NCBI GenBank assembly: GCA_902597515.1
Contig: CACJYB010000006.1
Coordinates: 1-44,454 of the forward strand
Origin: an uncultured Pelagibacteraceae bacterium
GTDB taxonomy: Bacteria; Pseudomonadota; Alphaproteobacteria; Pelagibacterales; Pelagibacteraceae
Direction of reading: 5' to 3'
DNA length: 44,454 nucleotides
Position 1 is the stretch's first letter. Every line of letters begins with the position of its first letter. The notes under the pieces were generated by a model, which had not been told where the DNA came from, ran no database searches, and saw only the letters and a program-made list of their open reading frames with translations. The translations under genes and the position numbers were made by a program. Positions 10,316-24,683 of the stretch are shown here, in pieces.

Positions 10316-10964
10316 TATTTTTATTAAGCTGATAAACTTTTTTATAAGCTCCAATAAATTTTTTTGAAGAATGAAATTTTCCAGGAAAAATTATACATTT
10401 TATTTTAGCTCGTCTAGCTGAATTTAAACTTTCTTGAGAATCCTCAATTGCTAAACAATCATTAGCTTTAAGCTTAAGTTTTTTAAGTGCTAATAAGTAT
10501 ATATCTGGGTAGGGTTTGTATTTTTTTACTAATTTTGCATTCCCTATAAAGTTAAAATCTCTTTTATTAATTGAATTTCTTAAACAATATAAGATTGAAT
10601 TTATATTATTTGTAGAAGTAGATGAAACAAACGCAATTTTAATATTTTCTTTTTTGCATAAAGAAATTAAATTTTTTACACCTGGCCTTAATTTAAGCTG
10701 ATGTTTTTTAAGATAATTATTAAAGAATTTAGTCTTTAAATTTCTTAAATATACTGAATTAACTTCAATTTTTTTCTTTTTGGCATATCTTGATATTCTA
10801 TTTTTGCCACCTGATTTGCTTAATAAATTTTGATACTCACGTTTGGTCCAATTCCAATCGAGTCCATATTGTTTGAATGCTTTATTGAATGACTTTCTCT
10901 GAATTTCTGAAGTTTCAACAATAGATCCAATAGAACCAAAAAGTAATGCTTTATAATATTTCAA
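10302..10964 (-). CDS. HAD-like protein lacking the catalytic aspartates
   Basis: This 220-residue protein is colinear with HAD-IA (beta-phosphoglucomutase-like) hydrolases: helical cap, motif II FVSSTS, motif III lysine before KPYPDIYLLALKKL, and motif IV LAIEDSQESLNSA. Motif I, normally FDxDGT, reads FGSIGS (9-14), so the nucleophile Asp10 is Gly and the acid/base Asp12 is Ile. As a phosphatase or mutase it should be dead; a binding or regulatory role, or early decay, is possible. The frame is fully open and starts inside the permease stop (4-nt overlap), so it is the last gene of the transporter operon. Confidence 0.75.
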   Translation of the reverse strand: MKYYKALLFGSIGSIVETSEIQRKSFNKAFKQYGLDWNWTKREYQNLLSKSGGKNRISRYAKKKKIEVNSVYLRNLKTKFFNNYLKKHQLKLRPGVKNLISLCKKENIKIAFVSSTSTNNINSILYCLRNSINKRDFNFIGNAKLVKKYKPYPDIYLLALKKLKLKANDCLAIEDSQESLNSARRAKIKCIIFPGKFHSSKKFIGAYKKVYQLNKNIILR

Positions 10965-11842
10965 CCTTTCACAGCTCCAGCAGTTAAACCACTAATGACC
11001 TGTCTTTGGAAAAACATAACAAGCATAAATAAAGGTGCAGTAGCAGATACAACTGCAGAAACTGCCCACATTAAATTTCCTTCATGTTGATTAGTACCTA
11101 AATAACTTTGTATTTTTGGAACCATAGTGTGATTTTCTTGATTAAGAAGTAACGCTGTTACGGTAAAATCATTATAAGCTAACATTAAACTAAATAACCC
11201 TGCTGTAATTACTCCAGGCCACATCACAGGCATAATGATATGTCTAAAAGCTTGAAAATACGAACAACCATCTATTAAAGCACTTTCATCAAGTTCTTTA
11301 GGGACAGTTTTGAAAAATGAATAAAGCAGCCACAAAGTAAAAGGTTGATTTATAGCAACCAAAACAACAATCGTAGTAGGAAGAATTCCCCAAATCTGCA
11401 ATTCAAAGAAAGGAAAAAGATATCCTGATACTAAAGTTATATGTGGCATAGCTCTAAAAATTAAAGCTGCCATTAAAATCCAAAAAGCATATTTCTCAGT
11501 TGATCTTGAAAGAGCGTATGCTCCTAAAGTTCCTAAAAACAAAGAAATACTTACAACAAATACTGTAACTATAATTGTATTTTTTGATGCTTTCCAAAAT
11601 TCGCCTTCAGTCCAAGCCTGAGTATAAGCATTAGTTGTAAATTGTCCGCCTGTTTCAATTAAGGTATTAAATGCTGATATCGCATACCACCAATCAGATC
11701 TTGAAAAGAAATCAGCTCTTACTTTAAATGATCCCCAAAAAGTCCAAATAAAAGGGAAGCAAGCAATTAACAACCAAGTGATTATAAAAATAGTATTAAA
11801 AGTTTTTAAACGAGTTGATTTTGTATCTAGTCCATAATCCAT
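10961..11842 (-). CDS. Carbohydrate ABC transporter permease (MalG type), system 1
   Basis: This 293-residue inner-membrane protein has six predicted helices and the cytoplasmic EAA loop (ELDESALIDGCSYFQAFRHI) that docks on the ATPase. The C-terminal ISGLTAGAVKG is the usual MalG-type ending. It pairs with the MalF-type permease 2 nt upstream. Together with the binding protein at 12924-14144 it forms an importer of the carbohydrate uptake (CUT1) class, but there is no ATPase gene in this operon. Confidence 0.92.
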   Translation of the reverse strand: MDYGLDTKSTRLKTFNTIFIITWLLIACFPFIWTFWGSFKVRADFFSRSDWWYAISAFNTLIETGGQFTTNAYTQAWTEGEFWKASKNTIIVTVFVVSISLFLGTLGAYALSRSTEKYAFWILMAALIFRAMPHITLVSGYLFPFFELQIWGILPTTIVVLVAINQPFTLWLLYSFFKTVPKELDESALIDGCSYFQAFRHIIMPVMWPGVITAGLFSLMLAYNDFTVTALLLNQENHTMVPKIQSYLGTNQHEGNLMWAVSAVVSATAPLFMLVMFFQRQVISGLTAGAVKG

Positions 11843-11844
11843 AA

Positions 11845-12873
11845 TTATCTCGCTGTTTTAAATTCTTTCCAAGTTCTAATTAATACTGGTGCTAGCAGAA
11901 TAGCTATTCCAATAATTGTCATCATTGAAGTAGCTGCAGCGGAACCAAACAATATCACTTCCTCATTAACTAAATTGTCATAGATTAACCAAGATAAAGA
12001 TTGTGCACTTCCTTCAGCGCTAAAACCTATAATGGGCTCAAATACTCTAAAGTTATCCATTAAAGAAATCAAAGCAACAAATGTAACTACAGGATAAATA
12101 TGTGGTAAAACTATATGTTTAATTCTTTGAAATCTTGAGGCTCCATCTATAATTGCAGCTTCAATTGGTTCTTGAGGGACTGTTTGAAGTGCTGCGTAAA
12201 AAACTACAAAGGCAAAAGGGGAGTGATGCCATATTCCATAAATAATAATTGTTATCCAAGTTAATGTTTTTGATGATTTAAGTGATAAATAAGGATCATT
12301 CATCAAATTTTGAATATTTGCTCCAATTATACCTTGAGAATCTATCATCCAAAATAATACTAATGATCCAACCAACGGTGTAACAATCATCGGTAAAATT
12401 GTACCAAAGATTAAAGGTCCTCTAATTTTTCTAGCAACTGCATTTAAGCTTAATGCAATAATAAATCCTAAGAGGAGTACATTTGGTGTAACAAACAAAC
12501 AATAAGTTAAAGTAAATATTAGAGCTTTATAAAAGGGAAGATTAGTTACTTGGTCTACAAAAGCGCCAAAACTTTCAGTTTCATTCCAAAATTTTTTTAT
12601 TTCATCAACTGCTAAATGATTTCGATCAGTATAAGTACCAAAACCATTAAATTTTCCAAGAGGCTTTGCTTCCCTAATTTTTGAGGTTTCTTCGTTATCA
12701 ACTACAATTGAAACAGTACATCCAAAAGGATCACATTTTTTAACTTCTTTTACTACTTGATCATGTTGTGCATAAAAGGATTGAATGCCGGTAGATATAA
12801 TTGGTAACCCAATAAACAGGATCATTGCTAAGCCTGTTGGTAAGAAAAACCAAAAAAAAGTTTTATTAGGCAT
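11845..12873 (-). CDS. Carbohydrate ABC transporter permease (MalF type), system 1
   Basis: This 342-residue permease has an N-terminal helix, a roughly 80-residue external loop between TM1 and TM2 containing two cysteines (CDPFGC), then the core helices and EAA loop (EPIEAAIIDGASRFQRIKHI). It is MalF-like in position and length. The loop may contact the binding protein; a disulfide across CDPFGC is possible. It follows the binding-protein gene after a 50-nt spacer that carries a hairpin. Substrate not determined; CUT1-type sugars or glycosides by family. Confidence 0.9.
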   Translation of the reverse strand: MPNKTFFWFFLPTGLAMILFIGLPIISTGIQSFYAQHDQVVKEVKKCDPFGCTVSIVVDNEETSKIREAKPLGKFNGFGTYTDRNHLAVDEIKKFWNETESFGAFVDQVTNLPFYKALIFTLTYCLFVTPNVLLLGFIIALSLNAVARKIRGPLIFGTILPMIVTPLVGSLVLFWMIDSQGIIGANIQNLMNDPYLSLKSSKTLTWITIIIYGIWHHSPFAFVVFYAALQTVPQEPIEAAIIDGASRFQRIKHIVLPHIYPVVTFVALISLMDNFRVFEPIIGFSAEGSAQSLSWLIYDNLVNEEVILFGSAAATSMMTIIGIAILLAPVLIRTWKEFKTAR

Positions 12874-12885
12874 TTAAATTTTGAT

Positions 12886-12910
12886 TAAGTGGGGAGTAAA
12901 TCCCCACTTA
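12886..12910 (-). terminator. Intercistronic hairpin between binding protein and permease, system 1
   Basis: TAAGTGGGGA and TCCCCACTTA form a perfect 10-bp stem with a 5-nt loop, downstream of the binding-protein stop on the minus strand. There is no good T tract after it, so it is more likely an mRNA 3'-end stabiliser or processing barrier than a full terminator. It would favour binding-protein mRNA over permease mRNA. Confidence 0.6.
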
Positions 12911-12923
12911 TAAGTTTTAGATT

Positions 12924-14144
12924 TTATAGAAAGCCTTGTTCTTTAGCTTTACTAATGTAAGCAGCCTCAACATCTTTCAATGCTTGTTCAGCTGACTCTT
13001 TACCTTGTAAAAACTCAACAATCTCACTTCCTAATGCACCATGCATTAAACCCATTTGTGGTAACATTGGATATGGTTTTGCTCCCATTTTTACAGCTTC
13101 GATAACACCAATAGATTTTGGTCCTGGTACAAACCCTTCTACTAACCAAACGGCTTGATCAGCAGCGTCAGCAACCATCTTCTTATTTGATGCTGCATGC
13201 GCTAAAGATCTAAATGTTGCCTCAGCATCTGCATCAGATCTGTTTTTTGCAAGTGTGAAACCATCCCACCATAATGTAGCAGCTGGAATATTTCCTCCAC
13301 CTACAGTAGCAGGTCCAGTTAATTTAGTTGCCTTAGTAATGTTAGGATCACCTTCATCATCTAAAAGTGTTCCCGATCTAGATGCCCATAATGTCATCAA
13401 TGCAACATTACCAGATTCCCATTCCACTTTAATTGCTTCACTATCATGAGTTAAGTAATCAGGGTTACTCAATTCAGACAATTTTTTTAACATATTTAAA
13501 GTAGCAACGCCTTTAGCATTATTAATATTAGGCTCTGCACTTCCAGATTTAAAGAATTCACCACCGTGACCAATAAACATGTTCACAAATTCTTCTGCTA
13601 AATTCCAACCAGCTTTGTATGCAGCTGCGTAAGGATATTGCATTTTACCTGAGGCTCTAATTTTTTCAGATGCTGCAACTACTTCCTCATAAGTTTTTGG
13701 AATAGCTATACCAAGATCTTTCAAAACATCTTCTCTGTAATACAAATGTTGAGTATTAGCCATAAACGCTACAGCCATTACTTTTCCATCGATTGTAATT
13801 AATTGAGAATCTTGAATTCCTTTTCCATATTTTTTAACAAGATCATCTAATGGTCTAATTAAATCTTGGTTCATCAAAGGAACAATTGAACTATTAGCTG
13901 CAATTCTTGCTGAAAACTCAGATGGATTTGCGGTCAAAGCTGGCACAGCGATTTTATTATGCTCAGATGAGTGAGTCACTTTAAAATCAGCACTTCCCTT
14001 ACATTGTTTAGAAGTTTCAACGAAAGTTCTTAATGCAGGAAAATCATTAGCCAAAATATTTATCGAACCACTTTTTATGTTACAGTCTGCAAATGCAGAA
14101 GTTCCAAAAAGTAGAAACAATAAAGTAACTAGTATTTTTCTCAT
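12924..14144 (-). CDS. ABC transporter substrate-binding protein (family 1), system 1
   Basis: This 406-residue periplasmic protein has signal peptide MRKILVTLLFLLFGTSAFA and no lipobox. The mature protein follows the type I extracellular solute-binding fold: SINILANDFPALRTF strand-helix start, AVAFMANTQHLYYREDVLK central hinge segment, and GNVALMTLWASRSG and IPAATLWWDGFTLAK in the ligand-facing region. The several Trp/Tyr residues are usual for sugar stacking. It has its own TATAAT-like -10 (14172-14177) and a hairpin on each side, suggesting separate high expression. The ligand is unknown. Confidence 0.9.
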   Translation of the reverse strand: MRKILVTLLFLLFGTSAFADCNIKSGSINILANDFPALRTFVETSKQCKGSADFKVTHSSEHNKIAVPALTANPSEFSARIAANSSIVPLMNQDLIRPLDDLVKKYGKGIQDSQLITIDGKVMAVAFMANTQHLYYREDVLKDLGIAIPKTYEEVVAASEKIRASGKMQYPYAAAYKAGWNLAEEFVNMFIGHGGEFFKSGSAEPNINNAKGVATLNMLKKLSELSNPDYLTHDSEAIKVEWESGNVALMTLWASRSGTLLDDEGDPNITKATKLTGPATVGGGNIPAATLWWDGFTLAKNRSDADAEATFRSLAHAASNKKMVADAADQAVWLVEGFVPGPKSIGVIEAVKMGAKPYPMLPQMGLMHGALGSEIVEFLQGKESAEQALKDVEAAYISKAKEQGFL

Positions 14145-14171
14145 ATGTTTTCTCTCTATTTTGTTAGTTAA

Positions 14172-14177: not shown

Positions 14178-14216
14178 ATTTAAGCTAGAAAACTATATCT
14201 ACTCATGAAATAGAAT

Positions 14217-14240
14217 AAAAGTGATAATTAAATCACTTTT
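14217..14240 (-). terminator. Terminator-like hairpin at the end of the MetE-like gene
   Basis: On the minus strand AAAAGTGAT and ATCACTTTT form a 9-bp stem with a 6-nt loop that includes the TAA stop of the MetE-like gene, ending in a short T stretch. It could partly separate the cupin/SnoaL/MetE-like genes from the transporter genes downstream. Confidence 0.5.
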
Positions 14241-15355
14241 GACGCAAGTTCCGCTCCACTCACTAACGACTCCAGCTTTTTATAAACAATATTTTCATCT
14301 ACATTTCCAAATCCAGCAAAGGTGCTAAATCCACAGTCAGTCCCAGCTAATAATTGTTCAGCATCAATGACCTTAGAAAAGGTTAAAATTCTATTCTTTA
14401 CAACTTCGGGATGTTCTACAAAATTTGTTGTAGAATCTATTACACCTGGGGCAATTATTTTGTCTTTTGGAATATTTATATTTTGAAAAATTTGCCACTC
14501 ATGAGAATGTCTTGGATTAGATGACTCAATTAGATAAGTCTGTACATTAGCTTTCAACGCAATTGGCATTATCTTTTCTAACGAAATATCATGTAGATGG
14601 GGTCCTTCATAATTTCCCCAACAGATATGTAGTCTTATACTAGAGCTGTCGATATTTTTAATAGCATTATTTAGACATTCTATTTGTTTTTCAGCTCTAA
14701 TTAGAAATTCAGATTCAGATAAATCTTTAAAAGTCATGTGTCTAGCAAGAGCTAAATCTGGACAATCTAACTGAAGTTTTAATCCATTTGATGTAATTTC
14801 TTCATACTCATCTTTCATAAGTTTAGATAAGTTTTCTAAATACTCATCATCATTTTTATAATATTTATTTGGCAAGAAAGCAGAAATAACTCCAGGAGAG
14901 GCAGCGTTCATGAAACCATCTTTGTGATTATTTTTTTCTAATGCTTGTTTAAAATTATTAATATCTTTTGTTAGGGAAGTTTTATCTTTAATTTTTAATT
15001 CACTAGTACAACATGGTCTTGTATAAGTTGGAGTACCACCTGTTCTTGCAATTCTTTCTTTAAAAGAAGGAAAGTCATCTAAATCTTTAGGCGCTTTTCT
15101 CTCACTCTCTCCAGAAAATCCATCAATTCTATCCTTAACATAAGTAGCGTAACTAATCTTAGACATCTCACCATCGCTAATATAATCAATTCCAACCTCG
15201 ATTTGTTTTTTAACAATCTTGTTAACATCTTTTTGAACAACCTTATCAAATTGATTAAAATCTATTTGTTCTTTTTGATCTTTCTTAAACAAGAGTTCAG
15301 ATAATTCATTTGATCTAGGCAAACTACCCACATGTGTTGTTTTAATTTTTGTCAT
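14228..15355 (-). CDS. MetE C-terminal-like (cobalamin-independent methionine synthase II family) protein
   Basis: This 375-residue protein is a single TIM barrel of the MetE C-terminal/UROD superfamily, about half the length of true MetE, with the start THVGSLPRSNELSELLFK. Zinc ligands are visible as HIC in SIRLHICWGNYEGPH, a glutamate in TYLIESSNPRH and cysteine in LLAGTDCGFSTF. This stand-alone family includes corrinoid-dependent methyltransferases and epoxide:thiol transferases, so thiol alkylation or dealkylation is a fair guess, but the substrate is unknown. It is 3 nt from the tandem SnoaL gene, linking it to the cupin and ABC system. Confidence 0.75.
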   Translation of the reverse strand: MTKIKTTHVGSLPRSNELSELLFKKDQKEQIDFNQFDKVVQKDVNKIVKKQIEVGIDYISDGEMSKISYATYVKDRIDGFSGESERKAPKDLDDFPSFKERIARTGGTPTYTRPCCTSELKIKDKTSLTKDINNFKQALEKNNHKDGFMNAASPGVISAFLPNKYYKNDDEYLENLSKLMKDEYEEITSNGLKLQLDCPDLALARHMTFKDLSESEFLIRAEKQIECLNNAIKNIDSSSIRLHICWGNYEGPHLHDISLEKIMPIALKANVQTYLIESSNPRHSHEWQIFQNINIPKDKIIAPGVIDSTTNFVEHPEVVKNRILTFSKVIDAEQLLAGTDCGFSTFAGFGNVDENIVYKKLESLVSGAELASKVI

Positions 15356-15358: not shown

Positions 15359-16321
15359 TTATTTAATTAAAATTTGTTTCCAAATTGCAACTTCATCAAA
15401 CAAAACCCACTCTCTTATAACATTTCCATCAACTATTTCTGCATGGTTTATCCCCATTATAAAAATATTTTTATTTGATTTTTCTCCAAAATCTAAACTG
15501 TCTTCAGAATGATTACCTTCTAAAAACCATCTTATTGACGCTTTGGGATTTTTATCTGGTTCTTCCAAATAACCAACATGCTCTATTGAAAACTTTATAT
15601 CACTCAAAGTATTTTTTAAATTATTCCAAAATTTTTTAATATCCTCTCTTCCATGTCCAATTTTATTTCCAGGCCAATAAATATTTGCAGCTCTTGCATA
15701 ATCAGAAAAATCATAGTTATTTTTAAAGATATTTTTCAATATTTTTGAGTATTTACCCCCAGCTGAGTCATCAGGCACAACGCTTTGTTTATAATCTGAT
15801 TTCATCTCAGAGCTTGAATTGAATAATTGTTGTGCTTTGTCAGCACCACCTTCTTTTTCAATAATCATTTGTGCAAATTCTTTTGGTGTAAATCCTATTT
15901 GTCTTACCATTGCACCTTGATCACGGACAATCCATTCATCATAGACTTGATTATTTTTGCATGCACAATCAGCAATGACTCTATAATAAATATCTTTATT
16001 AGTTGGTTTTCCATATGAACCATCTCCAAGATGTGTTCCTTTACTTAAAATTCTATGAGATGAATGATACCCCACATCATCATTTCCATTCCAGATCACA
16101 TCTTCACCAAGCAACTGTCTGTTAGGAAATTCTTTTAATGTTGTATAAGTTGCATCAATTACAGGTTTATTTCCATAAGTAACCCCAAAAGGTGATCTAA
16201 CAGGAATATTATCAGTGTAAAATTGAGCAATAGACTCAACATCTTTGTTTTCCCAAATTTGTTTAGTTATTTTAAGAATAAAATCAGGAAAGTTTTTATA
16301 TTTTTGATCAAATCCTTTCAT
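15359..16321 (-). CDS. Tandem SnoaL/NTF2-like domain protein (minus-strand copy)
   Basis: The 320-residue product from the ATG at 16321, which overlaps the cupin stop as TAATG, has two SnoaL-like domains. Domain 1 ends NQVYDEWIVRDQGAMVRQIG and domain 2 ends DGNVIREWVLFDEVAIWKQI, so the same terminal motif occurs twice. An upstream in-frame start at 16351 would extend into the cupin gene and is less likely. SnoaL-type domains are often ester cyclases, isomerases or hydratases; here the role is unknown. The divergent gene at 17316 has the same two-domain plan. Confidence 0.7.
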   Translation of the reverse strand: MKGFDQKYKNFPDFILKITKQIWENKDVESIAQFYTDNIPVRSPFGVTYGNKPVIDATYTTLKEFPNRQLLGEDVIWNGNDDVGYHSSHRILSKGTHLGDGSYGKPTNKDIYYRVIADCACKNNQVYDEWIVRDQGAMVRQIGFTPKEFAQMIIEKEGGADKAQQLFNSSSEMKSDYKQSVVPDDSAGGKYSKILKNIFKNNYDFSDYARAANIYWPGNKIGHGREDIKKFWNNLKNTLSDIKFSIEHVGYLEEPDKNPKASIRWFLEGNHSEDSLDFGEKSNKNIFIMGINHAEIVDGNVIREWVLFDEVAIWKQILIK

Positions 16322-17265
16322 TAGATTTGAGTTACACAATTTAAGTAACAATCCTCATTTTCGTTTATTTTTATACTAACGTTTGAGTTAATTGGGATAG
16401 AAATTGTATCTTTGGGATTTAAAATACATTGAAAATCATCAATCATAATTTCCCACTTACCAGTTCTTGAAAATAATATTGTAGGTTTTTCAAACTTTAA
16501 ATTATTTATTTGACCACTATTAGATTTTAAAATTGAAAGGTTAAATCCAGTATTTTGATTTATTAATGGAGCGTATTCTTTATTTTCAAATTTATTTCCA
16601 AGAATTTGAATTAAATTAACATTATCGTTTATCTTATTTACTTGTTTTGTATTTTCATTATATTTACATATAAATTTTTCTAGCTGATCAAGTTTGTAAT
16701 TATCAAATTTTTTTATTTCTTCTTTAGAAATTGGTTCTAGAATACTTTTTCCTTTTGGAATTTCATTTAAAGATAAATCAATTAATGAATTATCATTTAA
16801 AAGTGCCATACCTGTTTTCTTTGCTTTTTCTAAGACACTTGGAACCCAAGTTATTATTCCCGGATCATCTCCACCCAAAACAACAAAAATTAAACCTTCT
16901 TCATCACCCGCATTTTCAAATGCTCTAAACATATTTGTGGGCATAGAGATAATATCTCCAGTACTTAAAATCGTTTCATCTTTACCTTCTGCTCCCCAAT
17001 AAAATTTCCATTTGCCGGAATAAATAATGAAAACTTCTGCAGTTGTATGGCTATGTAAACCGGATCCATTTTTAGGCATAGCAGATACGGCACCTAGATT
17101 AAAAGTATGTGGCATTGGTATTTTAACAAATTGTTTACTATCTTCTGCGACACCTGGGCCTACAATAGAATAATTTTTTCTTTCTTTATGACCTTCAAGT
17201 TTGCCTTCAACAAATGGCAAAGTGCTTGGAACAAGATCTTCAAATTTAGCTAATCGATTATTCAT
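16321..17265 (-). CDS. Two-domain cupin protein
   Basis: This 314-residue bicupin has an N-terminal cupin with a plausible metal site (GLHSHTTAEVFIIYSGKW then DIISMPTNMFRAFENAG). A linker follows, then a C-terminal cupin (ILFSRTGKWEIMIDD ... PKDTISIPINS) in which the histidines are lost, so it is probably structural. Cupins of this sort are dioxygenases, isomerases or sugar-binding sensors. It is the first gene of the minus-strand operon, about 50 nt from the divergent SnoaL gene, and its stop overlaps the next start by one base. Function inferred only to family level. Confidence 0.75.
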   Translation of the reverse strand: MNNRLAKFEDLVPSTLPFVEGKLEGHKERKNYSIVGPGVAEDSKQFVKIPMPHTFNLGAVSAMPKNGSGLHSHTTAEVFIIYSGKWKFYWGAEGKDETILSTGDIISMPTNMFRAFENAGDEEGLIFVVLGGDDPGIITWVPSVLEKAKKTGMALLNDNSLIDLSLNEIPKGKSILEPISKEEIKKFDNYKLDQLEKFICKYNENTKQVNKINDNVNLIQILGNKFENKEYAPLINQNTGFNLSILKSNSGQINNLKFEKPTILFSRTGKWEIMIDDFQCILNPKDTISIPINSNVSIKINENEDCYLNCVTQI

Positions 17266-17315
17266 ATTTTTTTAAACTATATTTTGTGATAGTAAAATTA
17301 TCTAACAAAAAATAT

Positions 17316-18401
17316 ATGCAAATAGAACAATTTGATACAGGTCTTAAGGGTCAAGGAAAAGTAGAAAAAATAGTCATATCACCCGAAGAAAATTATAAGT
17401 ACAAACAAGTTGTCAGAAAATATTTAAATTCGATAGTAAATGATGGCATCTCTAAACTTGATCAAAATCTTAAAAATGCGTTCTCTCACGATATTAATGT
17501 TAATTGTTTTTATCCATTAAACGAGTTTGTAGGAGTTGATGATTTTAAGGAAAAATTTTGGAAACCTCTTTTTAATTCATTTCCTGATCTCGAAAGAAGA
17601 GAGCAAATAGTAATTAGTGGCGCTTTTAGAGATAAAATCCAAGTAGGTTCAATTTCTTCATTATCAGGAGTGTTTAAAAATACTTGGTTGGGCATTCAAC
17701 CTAATAACAAAATGGTAAATTTAAAGTGTTGTGAAATTCATCAGCTTAAAGATGGTAAAATTATTGAGAGTTATATTTTAATCGATTTAATAGATTTATT
17801 AATACAAACTGGAGCAAATCCAATTAACTCTTCAAGAGGATCTGAAGGAAATTGGTTAAATCCGATTAGCACAGATGGTGTAAATTTTTTTGAAAAAGAT
17901 ATGGAAATTTCTAAAGCAAGTTTAGAGCAATCACTTATCATGCAGAGAAGTTTAAATATAAAACCTGAATTAGAGGTTTCTTCTGATAAAGATCTTAAGG
18001 AAAGATTAATAAACCATCCACAAAAAGATTATTGGCATGAAAAAATGATTTGGTATGGACCAAGTGGTATTGGAACTGCCAGATCTTTAGAGGGATTTGT
18101 AGACAATCATCAGTTACCTTTTAGAAAAACTTTTAAGGAAAGAAATTATTGGAAACTTGGTCATTATTGTGAGTTAGGGGATGGAAAATTTTCTTTAACG
18201 GCAGGATGGAATAGTATTCAGGCAATATATGGAACTGAGGATTGGTTAGGATATAAATCTGAAAACCAAAAAGTAACTATGAGAGTTATGGATTTTTATC
18301 ACCATGATGAAGGAAAAATTCGTGAAAACTGGGTTCCAATTGATATAATCCACATATTAAAACAAATTGGAGTTGATGTTTTAGAAAGTATAAAAAAATA
18401 A
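17316..18401 (+). CDS. Tandem SnoaL/NTF2-like domain protein (plus-strand copy)
   Basis: The ATG at 17316 gives 361 residues; a GTG at 17286 would add ten residues and crowd the divergent cupin promoter. Two SnoaL-like domains are visible, each ending in the same motif: DGKIIESYILIDLIDLLIQTG and EGKIRENWVPIDIIHILKQIG. This is an internal duplication shared with the protein at 15359-16321, though the two are diverged. It is 1 nt ahead of the ABC ATPase gene, so it heads the plus-strand operon. A catalytic role on the imported compound is likely but not shown. Confidence 0.7.
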   Translation: MQIEQFDTGLKGQGKVEKIVISPEENYKYKQVVRKYLNSIVNDGISKLDQNLKNAFSHDINVNCFYPLNEFVGVDDFKEKFWKPLFNSFPDLERREQIVISGAFRDKIQVGSISSLSGVFKNTWLGIQPNNKMVNLKCCEIHQLKDGKIIESYILIDLIDLLIQTGANPINSSRGSEGNWLNPISTDGVNFFEKDMEISKASLEQSLIMQRSLNIKPELEVSSDKDLKERLINHPQKDYWHEKMIWYGPSGIGTARSLEGFVDNHQLPFRKTFKERNYWKLGHYCELGDGKFSLTAGWNSIQAIYGTEDWLGYKSENQKVTMRVMDFYHHDEGKIRENWVPIDIIHILKQIGVDVLESIKK

Positions 18402-18402: not shown

Positions 18403-19458
18403 ATGGCTAACATAAAATTTACCGGAGTACACAAATCATTTGGATCTAATAAAATAATCACAGATTTTAATCTTTTAGGTAAAGAAGATGAGTTTCTTGT
18501 ATTAGTTGGACCATCTGGATGTGGAAAATCAACTCTTCTAAGAATGATTGCCGGATTAGAAAAAATAGACGAAGGTGAAATTTTTATTAATGATCAAAAA
18601 ATTAATGAACTTCATCCTTCGAAACGTCAAACTGCAATGGTTTTTCAATCTTACGCTCTTTATCCTCATATGAATGTTTATGAAAATATGTCTTTTGGTC
18701 TAAAAATTGAAAAAAGGCCAAAGGAAGAAATCAACACAAAAGTAATGCAAGCTGCAAAAATTTTAAAAATTGAAGAACTATTAGAGCGAAAACCAAAACA
18801 ATTATCTGGAGGTCAAAGACAAAGAGTGGCGATAGGAAGAGCTATTACAAGAAATCCAAAGATATTTTTATTTGATGAACCTTTATCTAACTTAGATGCA
18901 GCATTAAGAGCTGAAATGAGGGTTGAAATATCTAAATTACACAACCAGATCAAAACAAATATGATTTATGTGACTCATGACCAAGTTGAGGCTATGACCT
19001 TAGCAGACCGAATAGTTATTTTAAATCAGGGAAATATTGAACAGGTTGGCACTCCTGAGGAAATTTATAATGATCCAGCAAATATTTTTGTTGCACAATT
19101 TATAGGCACACCCAAAATGAATATTTTAGAGGTAAACGAGGAAAATGTTGTTTCAGAAAATACAATTAAATTGCTAGGTAACTACATTCAATTTAATAAT
19201 TTAAAATTAAAACAATCAAAACATTTTGTGGGTATTAGGCCTGAACATTTAAAAGCAATTCAGAATACAAAATTTACTTTTAATCCTGAAATTGAATTAA
19301 TTGAAAACCTTGGTAATGAAAAAATTGTATATATGAAAAAAGATGAACACCAATTAAGTGCAAAAATTCCAAGCAATGTTGAAATAGGAAGTTCCATAGG
19401 TTTTGATTTAAATGACATTTTTATTTTTGATGAAAATGGAAAAAGAGTAAAATCATAA
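18403..19458 (+). CDS. ugpC: Carbohydrate ABC transporter ATP-binding protein (UgpC/MsmK/MalK type)
   Basis: This 351-residue ATPase has Walker A GPSGCGKST (36-44), Q-loop in AMVFQSYALYPHM, signature LSGGQRQR (134-141), Walker B FLFDEP (155-160), D-loop SNLDAA and the H-loop in VTHDQVEAM. A C-terminal TOBE-type domain (VGIRPEHL) marks the MalK/UgpC class. It is the only ATPase gene among the two CUT1 permease sets in the cluster, so it probably energises both, as MsiK-type shared ATPases do elsewhere. That sharing is inference. Confidence 0.93.
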   Translation: MANIKFTGVHKSFGSNKIITDFNLLGKEDEFLVLVGPSGCGKSTLLRMIAGLEKIDEGEIFINDQKINELHPSKRQTAMVFQSYALYPHMNVYENMSFGLKIEKRPKEEINTKVMQAAKILKIEELLERKPKQLSGGQRQRVAIGRAITRNPKIFLFDEPLSNLDAALRAEMRVEISKLHNQIKTNMIYVTHDQVEAMTLADRIVILNQGNIEQVGTPEEIYNDPANIFVAQFIGTPKMNILEVNEENVVSENTIKLLGNYIQFNNLKLKQSKHFVGIRPEHLKAIQNTKFTFNPEIELIENLGNEKIVYMKKDEHQLSAKIPSNVEIGSSIGFDLNDIFIFDENGKRVKS

Positions 19459-19602: not shown

Positions 19603-20934
19603 ATGAAAAATATAATAAAGATGTTTTGCGTAATTTCGTTTTTTATTTCGAATATTGTTTACGCAGACATAAAGTTTTGGACTACAGAAGTTCAGCCTGC
19701 CCGAATGGCTAAGCAAGAAGAAATGGCTAAAGCTTTTGAAGCTAAAACAGGTATTAAAGTAGATGTGATTCCAGTAGAAGAAAAAGATTTGGGAACTAGA
19801 GCTACAGCTGCAGCGGCAGCAGGTGACTTACCAGATGTGATTTATCATACTTTACAATATGTATTGCCATGGGCTGAAGCAGGAATATTAGATGTAGATG
19901 CCAATAACGATGTTGTGAAAGAACTTGGTAAAGATACATTTGCGCCAGGTGCACTTAACATGGCAAAAAAAGGTTCAAAAATTGCAGCTGTTCCAGTTGA
20001 TGGATGGACACAAATGGTTGTTTATAGAAAAGACCTTTTTGAAAATGCAGATTTAGCACCACCAACAAGCTATGCAAATATTGTAGCTGCTGTTGAGAAG
20101 CTATCAAAACAAAACGGAATGTTTGGTTTTGTTGCTGCAACTAAAACTGATGAAAATTTCATGAGTCAGGTTTTAGAACACGTCCTTTTAGCAAATGGGG
20201 TTAATATTGTTAAAAAGGGTGGTATCAAGAAACAAGGTAAAAAACTAAAAGAAGCATTAGAGTTTTATAAAGTAATTGCTAAAGCAAGTCCTCCAGGTGA
20301 ATTGTACTGGAAACAATCTAGAGCACTTTACTTTGCAGGGAAAACTCCAATGATTATTTGGTCTCCATTTATCATGGATGAGCTTGCAGGTTTAAGAGAC
20401 TCAGCTCCACCAACAATTAACAGTGATCCAACATCACCTGAGCTAGCTTCTAAAACTGGTTTCATTACTAATTTTAGTGGACCTAGTAATAAGAAAGGTG
20501 CTGCATGGGCAGATGTTAGATATTTTGGTATAACAGCTGATGCTGATACAGATGAAGCTAAACAATTTATCATGTACTCAATGGATGAAGGTTACACAAG
20601 CACTTTATCGATAGCTCCAGAAGGTAAATTTCCTGTAAGAAGAGGAAATTCGAGTGACCCTGAGGCTTTCACAAAAGCTTGGAGTAAACTACCTGTTGGA
20701 GTTGATAGAAAAGCTCCTTTATCAGATCTATATGACCCAGATGTTATTAACAACATTGTAGCTGGTTTAGATACTGCAAATAGATGGGGTGTTAAAGAAG
20801 GTGAATTATCAAGAGCATCAAAAGTCATAAATTCTCAATTTATAAATAGAATTACTAGACTTTATATTGATGATCAAATTGATGTCGATGAGGCTGTTGA
20901 TATGATTAACAAATCATTAGCTAAATTCAATTAA
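19603..20934 (+). CDS. ABC transporter substrate-binding protein (family 1), system 2
   Basis: This 443-residue periplasmic protein starts with signal peptide MKNIIKMFCVISFFISNIVY plus ADIK (cleavage likely after VYA). The mature protein shows the type I sugar-binding pattern: IKFWTTEVQPARMAKQEEMA, then AAAAAGDLPDVIYHTLQYVL, AVPVDGWTQMVVYRKDLF and a C-terminal APEGKFPVRRG. The strong Shine-Dalgarno, own promoter and terminator directly after the stop mark it as a highly expressed unit. Together with the GH63-like hydrolase in the same operon it suggests a glycoside osmolyte as ligand; this is inference. Confidence 0.9.
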   Translation: MKNIIKMFCVISFFISNIVYADIKFWTTEVQPARMAKQEEMAKAFEAKTGIKVDVIPVEEKDLGTRATAAAAAGDLPDVIYHTLQYVLPWAEAGILDVDANNDVVKELGKDTFAPGALNMAKKGSKIAAVPVDGWTQMVVYRKDLFENADLAPPTSYANIVAAVEKLSKQNGMFGFVAATKTDENFMSQVLEHVLLANGVNIVKKGGIKKQGKKLKEALEFYKVIAKASPPGELYWKQSRALYFAGKTPMIIWSPFIMDELAGLRDSAPPTINSDPTSPELASKTGFITNFSGPSNKKGAAWADVRYFGITADADTDEAKQFIMYSMDEGYTSTLSIAPEGKFPVRRGNSSDPEAFTKAWSKLPVGVDRKAPLSDLYDPDVINNIVAGLDTANRWGVKEGELSRASKVINSQFINRITRLYIDDQIDVDEAVDMINKSLAKFN

Positions 20935-20946
20935 TTTAAATTTTTT

Positions 20947-20981
20947 AAAAAAGCGGATAATATAAATTATCCGCTTTTTTT
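20947..20981 (+). terminator. Intrinsic terminator between binding protein and permease, system 2
   Basis: AAAAAAGCGGATAAT (20947-20961) pairs with ATTATCCGCTTTTTT (20966-20980): a perfect 15-bp stem, 4-nt loop, and a run of seven T. The ATG of the permease starts at 20982, immediately after the T run. It should end most transcripts after the binding-protein gene and also remove room for a ribosome binding site. Confidence 0.9.
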
Positions 20982-22241
20982 ATGAATGATACTTTAGCAA
21001 ATACAGAAAAAAAAACTGCATACATACTTACATTACCTGCAGTCCTTTTAGTATTTTCAATAATTTTATTTCCAATTTTTGCAAACATTTGGATTAGTTT
21101 TAAAGAGGTTGAATTAAAGGATATTAGAATTCCAGAACCAAGAGCAAAAAAAATTGTAAAATCTATTTCTGATGATCCTTCTAAAATTAAAATATTATAT
21201 AAGTTAAGAAATAGTTCATTAATTCAAGAAATAAGGGATGTTTCTTTTCAAGATAATTTTCCAAAAAATTTTGAAATTGAAAATTTAGATCCAAGATGTT
21301 CTTTTAAAAAGTATAACTTAAAATGTGAATTTGGAAATTGGCCAGCTAAATATAGGGAAAATTTTCAAGTAATATTTGCAACAAATGATGGATCCAAAAT
21401 AGATAAAAAAAAACTAAAATCAATTAAACCAAAATTAGACGGTAAATCTGATAATATATTGCTTAATACTAACTTTACTCTCAAAAATTTTAAAAAAGTT
21501 TTATTTGAAAATGAATTTGTAGATTTACTACTAACAACTTTTTATTACACATTTTTTGGAACTGTTGGCTCAATAGTATTCGGTATTTTAACCGCTCAGA
21601 TGGTTAATCAAAAATTTTATGGAAGAACATTTATGAGAAGTGTTCTACTTTTCCCATATGTTGCCCCAGTTGTTGCTTTAGCTTATACTTGGGAACTTTT
21701 GCTAGACCCCAATAGTGGCACTTTAAATAGTTTGTTATTAAATTATAAAATTATTGAAACTCCAATAAACCTTCTTGGACAAAAATATATTGAAATTAGT
21801 ATTTTAGGTTTTGATTTTAAATTAAGGTTAGCACTTACAACAGTTATAATGTTTGAAATTTGGAGGTATTTTCCTTTAGCCTTTTTATTTATTCTTGCAA
21901 GACTTCAAGCTATTCCAAAAGAATTATATGAGGCAGCTGATGTTGATGGGGCCAGTCCCTTTCAAAAATTTTTTAATATTACACTTCCCCAAATTACTGC
22001 AGTAATTTCGATTTTATTTATGATTAGATTTATCTGGAATTTTAATAAATTTGAGGACGTCTTTTTATTAACTGGAGGTGCATCAGGAACAAGAACTTTA
22101 CCAATAAATGTTTATCAACAAGGTTTTGCAATATCAGACATTGGAATGGGCTCAGCTGTTTCAATAGTAATCGTAGTATTACTTTTAATGTTTATGTTTT
22201 TTTATTTTAAACTTTTAGGAAAAAGAGTAGATGAGAACTAA
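20982..22241 (+). CDS. Carbohydrate ABC transporter permease (MalF type), system 2
   Basis: This 419-residue permease has an N-terminal helix (about 14-35), a large external loop of about 120 residues (to residue 165) containing two cysteines, then five to six core helices with EAA loop ELYEAADVDGASPFQKFFNI. No Shine-Dalgarno is possible, because the start abuts the T run of a terminator; initiation must be weak, leaderless-like, or from a later codon. It overlaps the second permease by 11 nt, so those two are coupled. Confidence 0.9.
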   Translation: MNDTLANTEKKTAYILTLPAVLLVFSIILFPIFANIWISFKEVELKDIRIPEPRAKKIVKSISDDPSKIKILYKLRNSSLIQEIRDVSFQDNFPKNFEIENLDPRCSFKKYNLKCEFGNWPAKYRENFQVIFATNDGSKIDKKKLKSIKPKLDGKSDNILLNTNFTLKNFKKVLFENEFVDLLLTTFYYTFFGTVGSIVFGILTAQMVNQKFYGRTFMRSVLLFPYVAPVVALAYTWELLLDPNSGTLNSLLLNYKIIETPINLLGQKYIEISILGFDFKLRLALTTVIMFEIWRYFPLAFLFILARLQAIPKELYEAADVDGASPFQKFFNITLPQITAVISILFMIRFIWNFNKFEDVFLLTGGASGTRTLPINVYQQGFAISDIGMGSAVSIVIVVLLLMFMFFYFKLLGKRVDEN

Positions 22242-23424
22242 AAACACAATACTATTTTCGTTGATATCTACTTTTTTCTTAATTTTTTTAATTTCGATTT
22301 GGAAGATATTAGCAACATTGCAAGGTTTAAGTATTAATAGTTTTAATATAGAAATAATTTTTACATTTGGTCTTTTAATATCATTAGCTCACTTAGGAAT
22401 AGGTGACATAATTAAATCAATTTATAAATCAATAATTTTTTCTGCCATATTCGTCTTTTGTGATGGTTACTTAATACAAAAATTACCAATTTGGTATAAT
22501 GTGGGCGTATTTTTAATATTATATTTTTTCACCAATAAAATTAGCAAATATACTTTTATAGGTTTAAAAGAAGAGCACTCTACTCAAGTAATTTTATTTG
22601 ATTTTTTAACTTTATTTGGAATTTTATTTTTTTCATTTGTAATACTTTTTCCATTTTACATGATGTTAGTAACAAGTTTTAAAACACAAATAGCATTGTT
22701 AGTGAATCCTTTAGATTTTAGTATCAATTTTGGACAAGATATAAAAGATTTGTTTAAATCTTATTTTGTAATTTTTAAATCTTATAAATTTGGAAAATAT
22801 ATTGTGACTAGTACAATTGTTTCTGTTGGTACCGTTATTATCACTCTTCTTTTTGCAATACCTGCTGCTTATGCAGTTGCAAGATTAAATTTCTTTGGAA
22901 AAACATTTTTGTCTACATCTATTCTTATAATATACATGTTCCCTGCAATCGTTCTTGTTATTCCCTTGTATACAATATTTAGTCAATTGGGTTTACGTAA
23001 TTCAATAGAGGGTTTATTAATTGTGTACACGGCAACAACACTCCCAGTAGCTATTTATATGTTACAAGGATACTTCAAAAGCATACCAAAAGAATTAGAA
23101 GAAGCTGCGATATTAGATAAATTAAGTTGGTTTGGAATAATTACAAAAATTATAATTCCACTAAGTATTCCAGCTATTTCATCTGTTGCTTTGTATGTTT
23201 TTATGATTGCTTGGAATGAATTTTTATTTTCTTTAATGTTTTTGGACAATCCAAATTCATTTACATTATCAAGAGCTATTCAATACTTAAGTGGAGATGC
23301 TGAAACACCAAGACAATATTTAATGGCAGGGTCAGTTGTAGTAACATTGCCTGTATTGTTTATATTTGTTTATTTTGAAAAATATTTAGTGAGTGGTTTG
23401 ACAGCAGGAAGCGTTAAAGGATAA
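22231..23424 (+). CDS. Carbohydrate ABC transporter permease (MalG type) with extra N-terminal helices, system 2
   Basis: The product is 397 residues, against about 270-300 for typical MalG-type permeases. The standard six-helix core begins near residue 125 (FDFLTLFGILFFSFVILFPF) and ends ISGLTAGS-like as VSGLTAGSVKG. The first 115 residues add about four hydrophobic helices (for example TILFSLISTFFLIFLISIW). The EAA loop reads ELEEAAILDKLSWFGIITKI, with K in place of the conserved G. It overlaps the GH63-like gene start by one base (TAATG). The extra helices are seen; their role is unknown. Confidence 0.88.
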   Translation: MRTKNTILFSLISTFFLIFLISIWKILATLQGLSINSFNIEIIFTFGLLISLAHLGIGDIIKSIYKSIIFSAIFVFCDGYLIQKLPIWYNVGVFLILYFFTNKISKYTFIGLKEEHSTQVILFDFLTLFGILFFSFVILFPFYMMLVTSFKTQIALLVNPLDFSINFGQDIKDLFKSYFVIFKSYKFGKYIVTSTIVSVGTVIITLLFAIPAAYAVARLNFFGKTFLSTSILIIYMFPAIVLVIPLYTIFSQLGLRNSIEGLLIVYTATTLPVAIYMLQGYFKSIPKELEEAAILDKLSWFGIITKIIIPLSIPAISSVALYVFMIAWNEFLFSLMFLDNPNSFTLSRAIQYLSGDAETPRQYLMAGSVVVTLPVLFIFVYFEKYLVSGLTAGSVKG

Positions 23425-24683
23425 TGAATAGGTTTATTAAAAATGCTCAAAAAATTTTAATTGGAAATAGAAAAAGAGGATATACCTTACCAACAAATAA
23501 CAAACTTTATCCTGCTCAATGGAACTGGGATTCAGCATTTATTGCATTAGGATATTCTTATTTTAATTTAAATTTTGCATTAAAAGAAATTAAGACACTT
23601 TTAGATGGGCAATGGAAAGACGGAATGGTTCCACATATATTGTTTCATAATACAAACACAAATTATTATCCTAACCATACGGCTTGGAATTGTGGAAACA
23701 AAGTTCGCTCGTCTGGGATAACTCAGCCACCAGTACTTGCAAGTATTTTAAAACAAATAATAGACAAAAACAAAATTTCTAAAAAACAAAAAAAAGAAAT
23801 TAAAAAATTTATAATAAAAATTAAAAAATCTCATGAGTGGTTTATTAAAAATAGAGATCCCAAAAAAACTGGTTTAGTTTCAATACTTCATCCTTGGGAA
23901 AGTGGTTATGATAACTCTTCGCTTTGGGATGGACCAATGAGTAAAGTTAAAATTGAAAAAAATATACAATACAAAAGAGCTGATAATAAAGTCATTAATC
24001 CAGAACATAGACCTTTAAATATTGACTATGATAGATATGTAACGATTAAAAACGATTTAAGAAAAAAAAAATATAATCCAAAAAAAATTTTCAATACTGC
24101 ATTATTCAATGTTGTTGATATTGGATTTAATTCTATATTTCTTAAAGCAAATAAAGATTTAATCATTCTTTTAAAAAAATTTAATCTAGATAGCTCAAAA
24201 ATTATTAATTATGTAAAATTTACTGAGAGAAATATTTTAAGATTTTTTGACAAAAAAAAAGGTGCTTTTTTCTCATTTGATTTAAGAAATAAAAAAAAAA
24301 TATCAGTCCCATCAATAACAAATTACTTAGTATTGTTTGCCGACATTAACAATCATGAGATAAATAATGTTTTAATCAAAAACTTAAAAAAACATAACTT
24401 AAAAGAAAAATATTTCTTTTCTTCAATAAAACCTAATCACAAAAGCTTTGAGGAAAAACGTTATTGGAGAGGTCCTGTGTGGGTTAATTGTAATTGGTTT
24501 ATATGCAAGGGTCTCATGAGTAAGGACGAAAAATATTCAAAAAAAATTAAACAAAGCACTATTAGATTGGTAGAAAAAAAAGGATTTCATGAATATTACA
24601 GTTGCAAGAATGGTAAACCTATGGGAGCAAATAATTTTTCTTGGTCTGCAGCGCTCTATTTAGATTTAAAATTAACCAATTAA
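23424..24683 (+). CDS. Cytoplasmic GH63-like glycoside hydrolase (glucosyl-/mannosylglycerate hydrolase type)
   Basis: This 419-residue protein has no signal peptide. It shows the (alpha/alpha)6-barrel landmarks of the GH63/trehalase-like clan: YPAQWNWDSAFIALGY near residue 30, QWKDGMVPHILFHN, SGITQPPVLASIL, LHPWESGYDNSSLWDG, RYWRGPVWVNCNWF and the C-terminal FHEYYSCKNGKPMGA with NFSWSAALYLDL. Bacterial enzymes with this set hydrolyse glucosylglycerate or mannosylglycerate, compatible solutes of marine microbes. It is coupled to the system 2 permease, so the imported glycoside is probably cut inside the cell. Substrate identity is inference. Confidence 0.75.
   Translation: MNRFIKNAQKILIGNRKRGYTLPTNNKLYPAQWNWDSAFIALGYSYFNLNFALKEIKTLLDGQWKDGMVPHILFHNTNTNYYPNHTAWNCGNKVRSSGITQPPVLASILKQIIDKNKISKKQKKEIKKFIIKIKKSHEWFIKNRDPKKTGLVSILHPWESGYDNSSLWDGPMSKVKIEKNIQYKRADNKVINPEHRPLNIDYDRYVTIKNDLRKKKYNPKKIFNTALFNVVDIGFNSIFLKANKDLIILLKKFNLDSSKIINYVKFTERNILRFFDKKKGAFFSFDLRNKKKISVPSITNYLVLFADINNHEINNVLIKNLKKHNLKEKYFFSSIKPNHKSFEEKRYWRGPVWVNCNWFICKGLMSKDEKYSKKIKQSTIRLVEKKGFHEYYSCKNGKPMGANNFSWSAALYLDLKLTN

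Follow-up and report, generated by a model that had tools for sequence, protein, structure and literature searches.

The window, that is, the whole 44,454-nucleotide stretch of DNA analysed, comes from a marine SAR11 bacterium (Pelagibacteraceae) and holds a divergent gene cluster whose members are all open reading frames at the positions given in Table 1. Pfam and NCBIfam matches bore out the gene families named in the preliminary description, and the interval it gave (10961-24683) agrees with the gene positions except that the HAD gene lies just outside. The start of SnoM was taken as 16318 (the mechanical ORF list has a TTG at 16351), and the permeases were identified as homologues of annotated sugar ABC permeases, without a family search. 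We refer to the bicupin, SnoM, SnoP, the MetE-like protein, importer 1, the shared ATPase and the pseudo-HAD as the core, and to the four genes for importer 2 and the GH63 enzyme as the cassette.

Table 1. Genes of the cluster and the adjoining flank, with the evidence for each assignment.
Gene product	Positions	Strand	Evidence	Module
Pseudo-HAD, HAD-IA fold, FGSIG replacing the catalytic DxD	10302..10961 (about)	-	PF13419	core
Importer 1 permease 2	10961..11842	-	homology	core
Importer 1 permease 1	11845..12873	-	homology	core
SBPm, importer 1 solute-binding protein, CUT1-like	12924..14144	-	PF01547	core
MetE-like zinc protein, limited to the C-terminal MetE domain	14228..15355	-	PF01717	core
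SnoM, tandem SnoaL protein	15359..16318	-	PF07366, two stretches	core
Bicupin, HxH...E triad in first domain	16321..17265	-	PF07883	core
SnoP, tandem SnoaL, second subfamily	17286..18401	+	PF07366, two stretches	core despite opposite strand
ABC ATPase, UgpC/MalK type	18403..19458	+	NF008653	
SBPp, importer 2 solute-binding protein	19603..20934	+	SBP_bac family, plasmid homologues	cassette
Importer 2 permease 1	20982..22241	+	homology	cassette
Importer 2 permease 2	22231..23424	+	homology	cassette
GH63 glycosylglycerate hydrolase-like enzyme	23424..24683	+	PF22422	cassette
HpsN-type DHPS dehydrogenase	24687..25973	-	8v35 match, GRYAH motif	flank, outside module

The cluster is made up of two modules lying side by side, not of one pathway. 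Among 68 readable SAR11 loci, which were selected for an hpsN flank and all carry that gene for this reason, the cassette was complete in 29, absent from 39 in which the SnoaL and cupin genes are kept, and partial in none; since it is all-or-none and forms separate operons elsewhere, two modules have to be distinguished. As to conservation in other genomes, named earlier as a check, the gene order is conserved and so does not arise by chance. Unlinked halves in relatives, named earlier as grounds for refuting the single pathway, turned out to be true of importer 2 and the GH63 gene, but not of SnoP, present in all 68 spans, or of the ATPase, present in 59. The core occupies a variable site in SAR11, with a lysE-like gene on one side and hpsN on the other. 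In a complete relative the order is cysK-cysE-lysE-one ORF-hpsN-pta with the core absent (L136), and two others (L138 and L139) also lack it between lysE and hpsN. In 8 of 11 other carrier genomes the core adjoins hpsN on one contig, the remaining three being broken by contig ends.

Both importers have the gene content of CUT1 systems, which may share an MsmX/UgpC-like ATPase: binding proteins of the SBP_bac_1/8 type, two permeases each and an ATPase of the UgpC/MalK type (NF008653, 464 bits against a cut-off of 432). They differ from other such systems in that two permease sets accompany a single local ATPase, or none in 9 of the 68 loci. A single ATPase accompanies the two permease pairs, as had been noted earlier, and probably serves both importers; it is retained in 30 of the 39 loci without importer 2. 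The cluster encodes two SBP_bac proteins according to Pfam. SBPm (PF01547, 3.9e-16) has as its closest solved relative the sugar ABC transporter protein 5iai (1.4e-10) and a median dN/dS of 0.024, and it was found together with both importer 1 permeases in all 51 loci read through that part. Similarity to sugar-binding proteins predicts a sugar or polyol as the importer ligand.

The GH63 protein matched PF22422 (MGH1-like GH) at 6.2e-83, with 279.7 bits against a cut-off of 27, and its closest solved relative is TTHA0978 (2z07; 1.5e-94). It shares with MhGgH and TTHA0978 the fold family, both catalytic acids (Asp163 and Glu390, equivalent to Asp182 and Glu419 of MhGgH) and all 11 substrate residues described as strictly conserved in MhGgH; the five direct glycerate contacts are all kept. 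Of 23 positions checked against MhGgH, 18 were identical and 5 differed, and the glucose contact Gln434 is replaced by Phe, as in TTHA0978. Further differences from MhGgH are the linkage to a CUT1-like importer and a score of 302 bits against NF047898, the NCBIfam glucosylglycerate hydrolase equivalog, whose cut-off is 550; the protein is therefore classed only as GH63 glycosylglycerate-hydrolase-like. No signal peptide was obvious by eye. A glucosylglycerate/mannosylglycerate hydrolase would be expected to act on these two compounds and not on glucosylglycerol. Since both catalytic acids and the residues in direct contact with glycerate are retained, the substrate of the cassette is likely to be glucosylglycerate or mannosylglycerate, and the osmolytes of the glucosylglycerate type suggested earlier thus look right for the cassette, but not for the core. 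SBPp shares 62-68% identity with proteins encoded on five plasmids of Alphaproteobacteria. Three named plasmids (Ruegeria, Maritalea, Thalassospira) carry the cassette as an operon that includes an ATPase of its own and in which a "hypothetical protein" is the GH63 homologue at 33-34% identity. These plasmid stretches gave no cupin or SnoaL match. One of the three adjoins a glycerate kinase gene. The two Pfam glycerate kinase families each had no match in 10 SAR11 genomes including that of the window, which, like the low NF047898 score and the Phe in place of Gln434, counts against the proposed function of the cassette.

Alphaproteobacteria other than SAR11 also carry the core families next to SnoM. 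Across 28 such neighbourhoods, spread over 26 genomes, we found a cupin in 26, a HisD-type dehydrogenase in 23, a second tandem SnoaL protein in 23, a MetE-like protein in 22, and homologues of importer 1 permeases 1 and 2 in 19 and 20, respectively. Neither the GH63 gene nor importer 2 occurred in any of the 28. This guild, whole or partial, is also found on named plasmids of Ruegeria, Octadecabacter, Marinovum, Paracoccus, Labrenzia, Ensifer, Sinorhizobium, Phaeobacter, Vibrio, Deinococcus and Halobellus. Some of the operons outside SAR11 contain or adjoin genes for LacI regulators, RraA, 3-oxo-tetronate kinase, an HpcH-type aldolase and SMP-30/gluconolactonase, which lends them a sugar-acid character. 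In the papers searched, no description of the core gene set and no pathway matching it was found, in keeping with the earlier remark that no standard pathway joins its SnoaL, cupin and MetE families. The HAD protein had been called a pseudoenzyme, and rightly so. It matched HAD_2 (PF13419) at 3.4e-23, but the catalytic motif of HAD phosphatases, DxD, is replaced by FG[SA]IG in all 66 SAR11 copies with a readable N-terminus. Its median dN/dS was 0.19 (35 pairs), and the same motif recurs in L150 (14729-15382), a guild locus from another family.

The 375-residue MetE-like protein matched Meth_synt_2 (PF01717, 3.2e-16). Its zinc ligands H243, C245, E277 and C341 are invariant in all 22 aligned homologues, as are Ser11, Glu63 and Asp197, which we take to be the positions where MetE binds homocysteine. 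The zinc site and the VGS...DGE...QLD pattern are common to this protein, core methionine synthases and epoxyalkane:CoM transferase. Unlike the other two groups, it lacks the N-terminal half, has the signatures HxCWGNYxGPH and NxRHxHE, lies in an uptake cluster and carries VIDSTT in place of YDIHSP, whose His is the folate-side proton donor in MetE. It reached no NCBIfam methionine synthase cut-off among the matches listed, and an identity as MetE was rejected on this ground and for the missing two-domain form with the YDIHSP His. Its features fit a thiol or methyl transfer step, and the intact zinc site is compatible with the earlier proposal of such a step. The protein might even be the key enzyme, demethylating an imported compound and handing the methyl group to homocysteine to give methionine. 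The invariant residues would suit this, the replaced His suggests that the donor is probably not methyl-THF, and Croceicoccus has a 45% identical relative within a THF/C1 cluster. The same residues could, however, suit another thiol acceptor, the Croceicoccus context agrees equally well with methyl-THF as the donor, and the gene is dispensable for the guild, since it is missing from several guild loci (6 of the 28 neighbourhoods, some of them incomplete at their ends, and 6 of 11 named plasmid loci); we consider this role unlikely.

The flanking dehydrogenase is of the HpsN type by score (2.3e-160 to 8v35) and by its GRYAH motif; GRY[AS]H is the sulfonate-binding motif of HpsN (PMC11382572). 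A link of the core to the flanking HpsN, Pta, SlcC-like and Tau-like genes in sulfonate metabolism, with import of, for example, a DHPS conjugate, would agree with the hpsN flank of all 68 spans (by selection) and of 8 of the 11 further carriers, and with the sulfoquinovosyl-glycerol binding protein SmoF among the solved relatives of SBPm (1.8e-6, behind others). SAR11 HpsN is also described as catalytically promiscuous (PMC11131964). On the other hand, hpsN was detected in 44 of 101 searched genomes and the MetE-like core gene in only 12, so that most hpsN genomes are without a visible core, and hpsN also flanks core-free sites. The HisD of the guild, which directly follows SnoP in L150-L152, is a further subfamily that lacks the sulfonate-binding His, with GKFPM or GRYP[LMI] instead of GRY[AS]H in all nine aligned proteins, and none of the 28 non-SAR11 neighbourhoods had an hpsN-type best match. 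A sulfonate role of the core is thus improbable. In the 12 SAR11 carrier genomes searched no guild HisD was found, all HisD-family matches being HpsN (48-49% identity, 10 genomes) or HisD-like (30-34%, 11 genomes).

PF07366 matched two stretches in each of the tandem SnoaL proteins (2.1e-19 and 3.4e-20), which are 15% identical to each other; SnoP is 26-32% identical to SnoP-type proteins at other guild loci. The AlphaFold model of SnoM (pLDDT 77.8, pTM 0.80) matched SnoaL, SnoaL2, AknH, KSI and LEH with Z scores of 13-15 (up to 14.9), mostly through its second half, so that a fold is shared with SnoaL cyclases, ketosteroid isomerase and limonene epoxide hydrolase; the first half had one match among those listed (8r2e, residues 6-139, Z 13.5). 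The predicted structure of SnoP is weak, and its assignment comes from the two PF07366 stretches; the Pfam matches in both proteins and the SnoM model place each half in the SnoaL/NTF2 fold. D133 and D308 of SnoM are each kept in 35 of 36 homologues. Pfam recognised only the first half of the bicupin (Cupin_2, PF07883, 2.6e-10); the second half was assigned by eye. H71, H73, E77 and R114 are present in all 34 homologues, forming the HxH...E triad with Arg at the fourth-ligand position, usually a His in cupins. Polyketide cyclisation is the best-known role of SnoaL proteins, and cyclases of this kind are among the structural matches of SnoM, which would suit a biosynthetic or protective core that turns an imported precursor into a small cyclised product. 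Unlike the cyclases, however, these proteins have two fused domains each, occur as two paralogous subfamilies in 23 of the 28 neighbourhoods and stand alongside sugar-type importers, and operons elsewhere that include or adjoin genes for aldolases, gluconolactonase, 3-oxo-tetronate kinase and LacI-type regulators argue for catabolism, making a biosynthetic core very improbable.

We favour, at a probability of about 60%, a variable site with two independent catabolic modules, the core acting on a polyol- or sugar-acid-like compound and the cassette on glucosyl- or mannosylglycerate. Directly observed are the genes present, their division into two modules, the site of insertion, the recurring guild and the conserved residues. 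The cassette substrate is read from its protein families and the chemistry of the core more tentatively, its substrate class being taken from families that adjoin it elsewhere and are mostly absent from the SAR11 cluster. The nine loci that have no local ATPase and the guild loci that have no MetE-like gene also count against this reading. Importer 1 with the ATPase would import a small polyhydroxylated compound resembling a polyol or sugar acid, which the bicupin, SnoM and SnoP may isomerise or dehydrate in the cytoplasm, and the MetE-like zinc protein would transfer a methyl or alkyl group between a thiol and one of the pathway intermediates; as judged from these families, the core probably degrades its compound with such a thiol or methyl transfer. 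In other lineages the guild HisD-family NAD dehydrogenase, an SDR, a lactonase-like alpha/beta hydrolase and an RraA/HpcH aldolase would finish the oxidation and retro-aldol cleavage, and in SAR11 carriers without guild HisD, HpsN could possibly substitute as the dehydrogenase. Importer 2 would bring in glucosylglycerate or mannosylglycerate, to be split into hexose and glycerate by the cytoplasmic GH63 enzyme. The single pathway first proposed, in which an imported glycoside is cleaved by the GH63 enzyme and the aglycone passed to the SnoaL, cupin and MetE-like enzymes, agrees with the adjoining modules and their shared ATPase but is largely refuted by the many loci without the cassette, including all 28 outside SAR11, by the cassette operons with an ATPase of their own, and by glycerate, the expected aglycone, which should need no SnoaL chemistry. 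On one Ruegeria conchae plasmid only about 28 kb separate the cassette from the guild cluster, so that the two may travel together, which favours a single pathway and counts against independence. What stands of the earlier interpretation is the conserved, pathway-less gene set and the MetE-like transfer. A fuller version of the two-module reading, an undescribed route combining sugar-acid isomerisation or dehydration by tandem SnoaL proteins, demethylation onto homocysteine by the MetE-like protein, HpsN as a substitute in SAR11 and the dead HAD as a binding partner, is improbable as a whole. The reach of such a route would be the Alphaproteobacteria and, in part, Vibrio, Deinococcus and haloarchaea.

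Glucosylglycerate is an osmolyte of marine cyanobacteria, and through the cassette its consumption by some SAR11 bacteria can be tested directly. The core is a recurring set of unusual enzyme families across unrelated bacteria, and its substrate can be found without a SAR11 culture, as the guild is present in cultured Ruegeria, Phaeobacter and Sinorhizobium.

Each gene named in the preliminary description was an open frame, and the families of the non-permease ones were confirmed, so the set exists as described and is conserved. Median dN/dS was 0.02-0.19 in 10/10 genes tested (ungapped pairs of 80-99.5% protein identity, dS < 2.5), which indicates purifying selection throughout. The source is a SAR11 genome (G000) with a completeness of 69%, its 56 contigs totalling 906,634 bases. 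The relatives of the SnoaL gene among the best 80 of 265 all belonged to Pelagibacteraceae or Candidatus Pelagibacter, and the window genes were mapped onto these 80 SAR11 loci, a sample biased to close relatives because only the best 80 were taken.

Cassette genes were counted in the 68 of the 80 loci that hold both hpsN (the DHPS dehydrogenase gene right of the core) and the cupin gene, since there the stretch between the two is readable. The binding protein SBPp and permeases P1p and P2p of importer 2, together with the GH63 gene, were all present in 29 of these loci and all absent from 39, a partial set occurring in 0/68, while the plus-strand tandem SnoaL gene (SnoP) was found in 68/68. 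The ATPase gene accompanied the cassette in 29/29 loci and was kept in 30 of the 39 cassette-less ones, so that it probably serves importer 1 too; the other 9 had no ATPase gene at this place and include L052 and L053, in whose gene orders the ATPase sits elsewhere. For the core, scored in the 51 SAR11 loci with the cupin gene plus a lysE-like or alpha/beta hydrolase gene, the minus-strand tandem SnoaL protein (SnoM), the MetE-like protein, and SBPm, P1m, and P2m of importer 1 were encoded in 51/51, and the pseudo-HAD in 49. From these counts, the genes of the plus operon described earlier exist but form a mixed unit: SnoP and the ATPase belong with the minus operon, and importer 2 plus GH63 make up a separate cassette.

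Coordinates of features in the window and in compared loci
Feature	Sequence	Positions
Pseudo-HAD gene	window	10302-10961
GH63 gene	window	23424-24683
Sulfonate-island-like right flank	window	24687-36587
tRNA-Met	window	39363-39439
ORF with mechanically listed GTG start	window	39413-39964
Guild cluster, Ruegeria conchae unnamed1	L102	3464-19697
Gene row with actinobacterial MetE-like relative	L108	8989-13338
Gene row with actinobacterial MetE-like relative	L109	8989-13351
Gene row with sphingomonad MetE-like relative	L110	5966-10131
ORF (324 aa) in place of core	L136	8129-9103
Pseudo-HAD gene, guild locus of another family	L150	14729-15382
Cassette, Ruegeria conchae unnamed1	L170	7914-14086
SBPm-type importer with tandem SnoaL genes, Ruegeria conchae unnamed1	L173	10799-18432

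We then followed the core outside SAR11. SnoM relatives at 1e-30 were found in 28 other genomes among 385 sampled across the class, and 28 neighbourhoods from 26 genomes were examined (G174 and G184 were left out, and several neighbourhoods are cut by contig ends), presence being a best tblastn match that scored 60 bits or more (80 or more for LacI, SDR, and HAD, 150 or more for the ATPase). These held the cupin (26), a HisD-type dehydrogenase termed guild HisD (23), a SnoP-type tandem SnoaL protein (23, alongside the SnoM type), the MetE-like protein (22), LacI (20), SDR (19), importer binding protein and permeases (19-20), ATPase (16), alpha/beta hydrolase (15), and RraA (11). GH63, SBPp, and hpsN were best matches in 0/28. 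The importer 2 and GH63 genes are thus separable from the SnoaL/cupin core in other genomes, and the earlier reading of a single pathway, in which an imported glycoside is cleaved and its aglycone processed by the SnoaL, cupin, and MetE-like proteins, fails, the cassette being absent from 39/68 SAR11 loci and GH63 from all 28 neighbourhoods. In nine control loci not picked by SnoM (L108-L110, L136, L139, L170-L172, and L175), the cupin and SnoaL references gave no match and the MetE, HAD, and HpsN/HisD references matched only loci picked for such a gene or holding hpsN; some of the nine also matched generic references (ATPase, LacI, permeases, alpha/beta hydrolase, amidohydrolase), which lowers the weight of the counts for LacI, SDR, and permeases.

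Among 11 named plasmid loci, some selected via genes other than SnoM, SnoM-type genes occurred in 11, SnoP-type in 8, cupin in 8, guild HisD in 7, and MetE-like in 5. Gene order was broadly alike in Ruegeria conchae, Octadecabacter arcticus, Marinovum algicola, Ruegeria sp. THAF33, Ruegeria sp. SCSIO 43209, and Paracoccus alcaliphilus. Versions in Ensifer, Labrenzia, Sinorhizobium, and Deinococcus were reduced or divergent, as was that of Halobellus, a haloarchaeon, which has SnoaL genes and a MetE-like gene, and Vibrio pelagius had a reduced one with importer and tandem SnoaL only. The loci of Paracoccus, Labrenzia, Ensifer, Deinococcus, and Vibrio showed no MetE-like gene, and none is listed in the incomplete gene table of the Sinorhizobium locus. 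The small genomes of L150-L152 have the divergent cupin/SnoP arrangement of SAR11, and the next gene encodes a guild HisD that shares 73-74% identity with that of Ruegeria; L150 and L152 also have the SDR. No relevant description of the SnoaL/cupin/HisD/MetE combination was found in the literature searched, which lies mostly outside subscription papers, nor any mention of SnoaL in the main text of PMC9040609.

SnoM and SnoP represent two subfamilies, 15% identical. The SnoM model (pLDDT 77.8, pTM 0.80) matches SnoaL-fold structures, almost all listed matches covering the second half and one the first (8r2e, residues 6-139, Z 13.5); Pfam detects SnoaL in both halves, and a PDB sequence search gave no match at E 0.01. 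The SnoP model was poor (mean pLDDT 59.3). Towards the end of either half, at the position of the SnoaL catalytic Asp, both types keep an Asp (D133 and D308 in 35/36 SnoM-type proteins; D167 in 50/52 and D353 in 52/52 SnoP-type proteins). The cupin retains H71, H73, E77, and R114 in 34/34. In the MetE-like protein, four zinc ligands and three further residues, which we take to lie at the homocysteine site, are kept in 22/22, and the YDIHSP motif is lost; judged by sequence, its residues would fit thiol or methyl transfer without methyl-THF.

The remotely related MetE-like genes of Dietzia, Rhodococcus, and Croceicoccus lie in contexts other than the guild and do not fix the reaction. On plasmids, the actinobacterial relatives in L108 and L109 share a gene row with genes for a 2-oxoglutarate/iron oxygenase, a phytanoyl-CoA dioxygenase, and an HD-domain protein, a pairing reminiscent of enzymes of oxidative phosphonate cleavage. 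The sphingomonad relative belongs to a THF one-carbon cluster (MTHFR, purU, folD), with genes for aromatic degradation nearby. In the pseudo-HAD, FG[SA]IG replaces DxD, and the gene is under purifying selection alongside the core in SAR11; the L150 protein has the same FGSIG motif, and L155 provides the second HAD match among guild neighbourhoods (35%). The one neighbourhood inspected of HAD relatives on plasmids gave no functional lead.

The guild HisD was not found in 12/12 SAR11 carrier genomes, most of them incomplete; all HisD-family matches there were either HpsN (10 genomes, at 48-49%) or a protein resembling HisD (11 genomes, at 30-34%). HpsN may substitute for the absent dehydrogenase in SAR11. 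The sulfonate-binding His is missing from 9/9 guild HisDs, and the HpsN of the window has the GRYAH motif, which tells HpsN from HisD (PMC11382572). MetE-like matches occurred in 19/101 genomes, 7 of them distant (25-26%) and 12 close (counting G000, and with one truncated at a contig end), and hpsN in 44/101. The 12 carriers are a lower bound, since the core genes of G004 run up to a contig end and the cassette genes of G052 and G058 lie at one. The core adjoins hpsN on one contig in 8/11 other carriers, the remaining 3 being broken by contig ends.

The complete, core-less relative L136 reads cysK, cysE, lysE, one other ORF, hpsN, pta, slcC-like, tauCBA, tpa, ald, and in L138 and L139, too, the interval from lysE to hpsN is core-less. 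The site is therefore variable, and in the window it is filled by everything from the alpha/beta hydrolase through GH63. A single ORF occupies this site in L136. Given its distribution and the core-less sites, hpsN is best read as flank, and on these grounds and the motif, HpsN was rejected as a cluster member. The right flank, conserved beside the variable site, resembles a sulfonate island with hpsN, pta, and slcC-, tauABC-, tpa-, and ald-like genes; these last four labels, like cysK, cysE, and lysE, were assigned by eye, and the flanking genes searched by family were the HisD and Pta types only. Further right, the tRNA-Met overlaps the GTG start of an ORF, which therefore probably begins further downstream.

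Five alphaproteobacterial plasmids encode proteins with 62-68% identity to SBPp, and a sixth record has one with 41%. Three of these loci share a gene order, with the binding protein first, then the two permeases, a GH63 homologue (33-34%) annotated as "hypothetical protein", and a UgpC-type ATPase; in Maritalea a glycerate kinase gene comes after the operon. On the Ruegeria conchae plasmid unnamed1, the cassette lies ~28 kb from the guild cluster; the plasmid also has a second SBPm-type importer. A Ruegeria homologue of SBPm is WP_010443165.1. The window GH63 retains both catalytic residues and each of the 11 substrate residues that PMC6608630 describes as strictly conserved across MhGgH and MgH enzymes; that paper also reports no cleavage of glucosylglycerol by MhGgH. 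Together these points favour glucosyl- or mannosylglycerate as the predicted substrate. Of 23 positions checked, 18 were identical and 5 different; Gln434, a glucose contact of MhGgH, is Phe in both the window GH63 and TTHA0978. Against the glycosylglycerate reading, GH63 scores below the NCBIfam cut-off, and no glycerate kinase was recognised in the 10 SAR11 genomes searched. Offshore SAR11 genera are reported to have glucosylglycerate synthesis genes (PMC12636525), and the portions consulted of PMC6775983, PMC12636525, and PMC3686209 hold no report of glucosylglycerate uptake by SAR11. Two GH63 alleles, ~95% or ~76% identical to that of the window, occur in L029, L038, L039, L042, L044, and L055, where the neighbouring SBPp is 98-100% identical; this divergence beside a near-identical SBPp suggests allele replacement by recombination.

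The cassette is a putative osmolyte-use operon of an already known type, and the core represents a guild that is widely shared and uncharacterised. The core is not strange in type, but its enzymology is unusual and its SAR11 hosts are very abundant, and cultured relatives offer a clear route to an answer.
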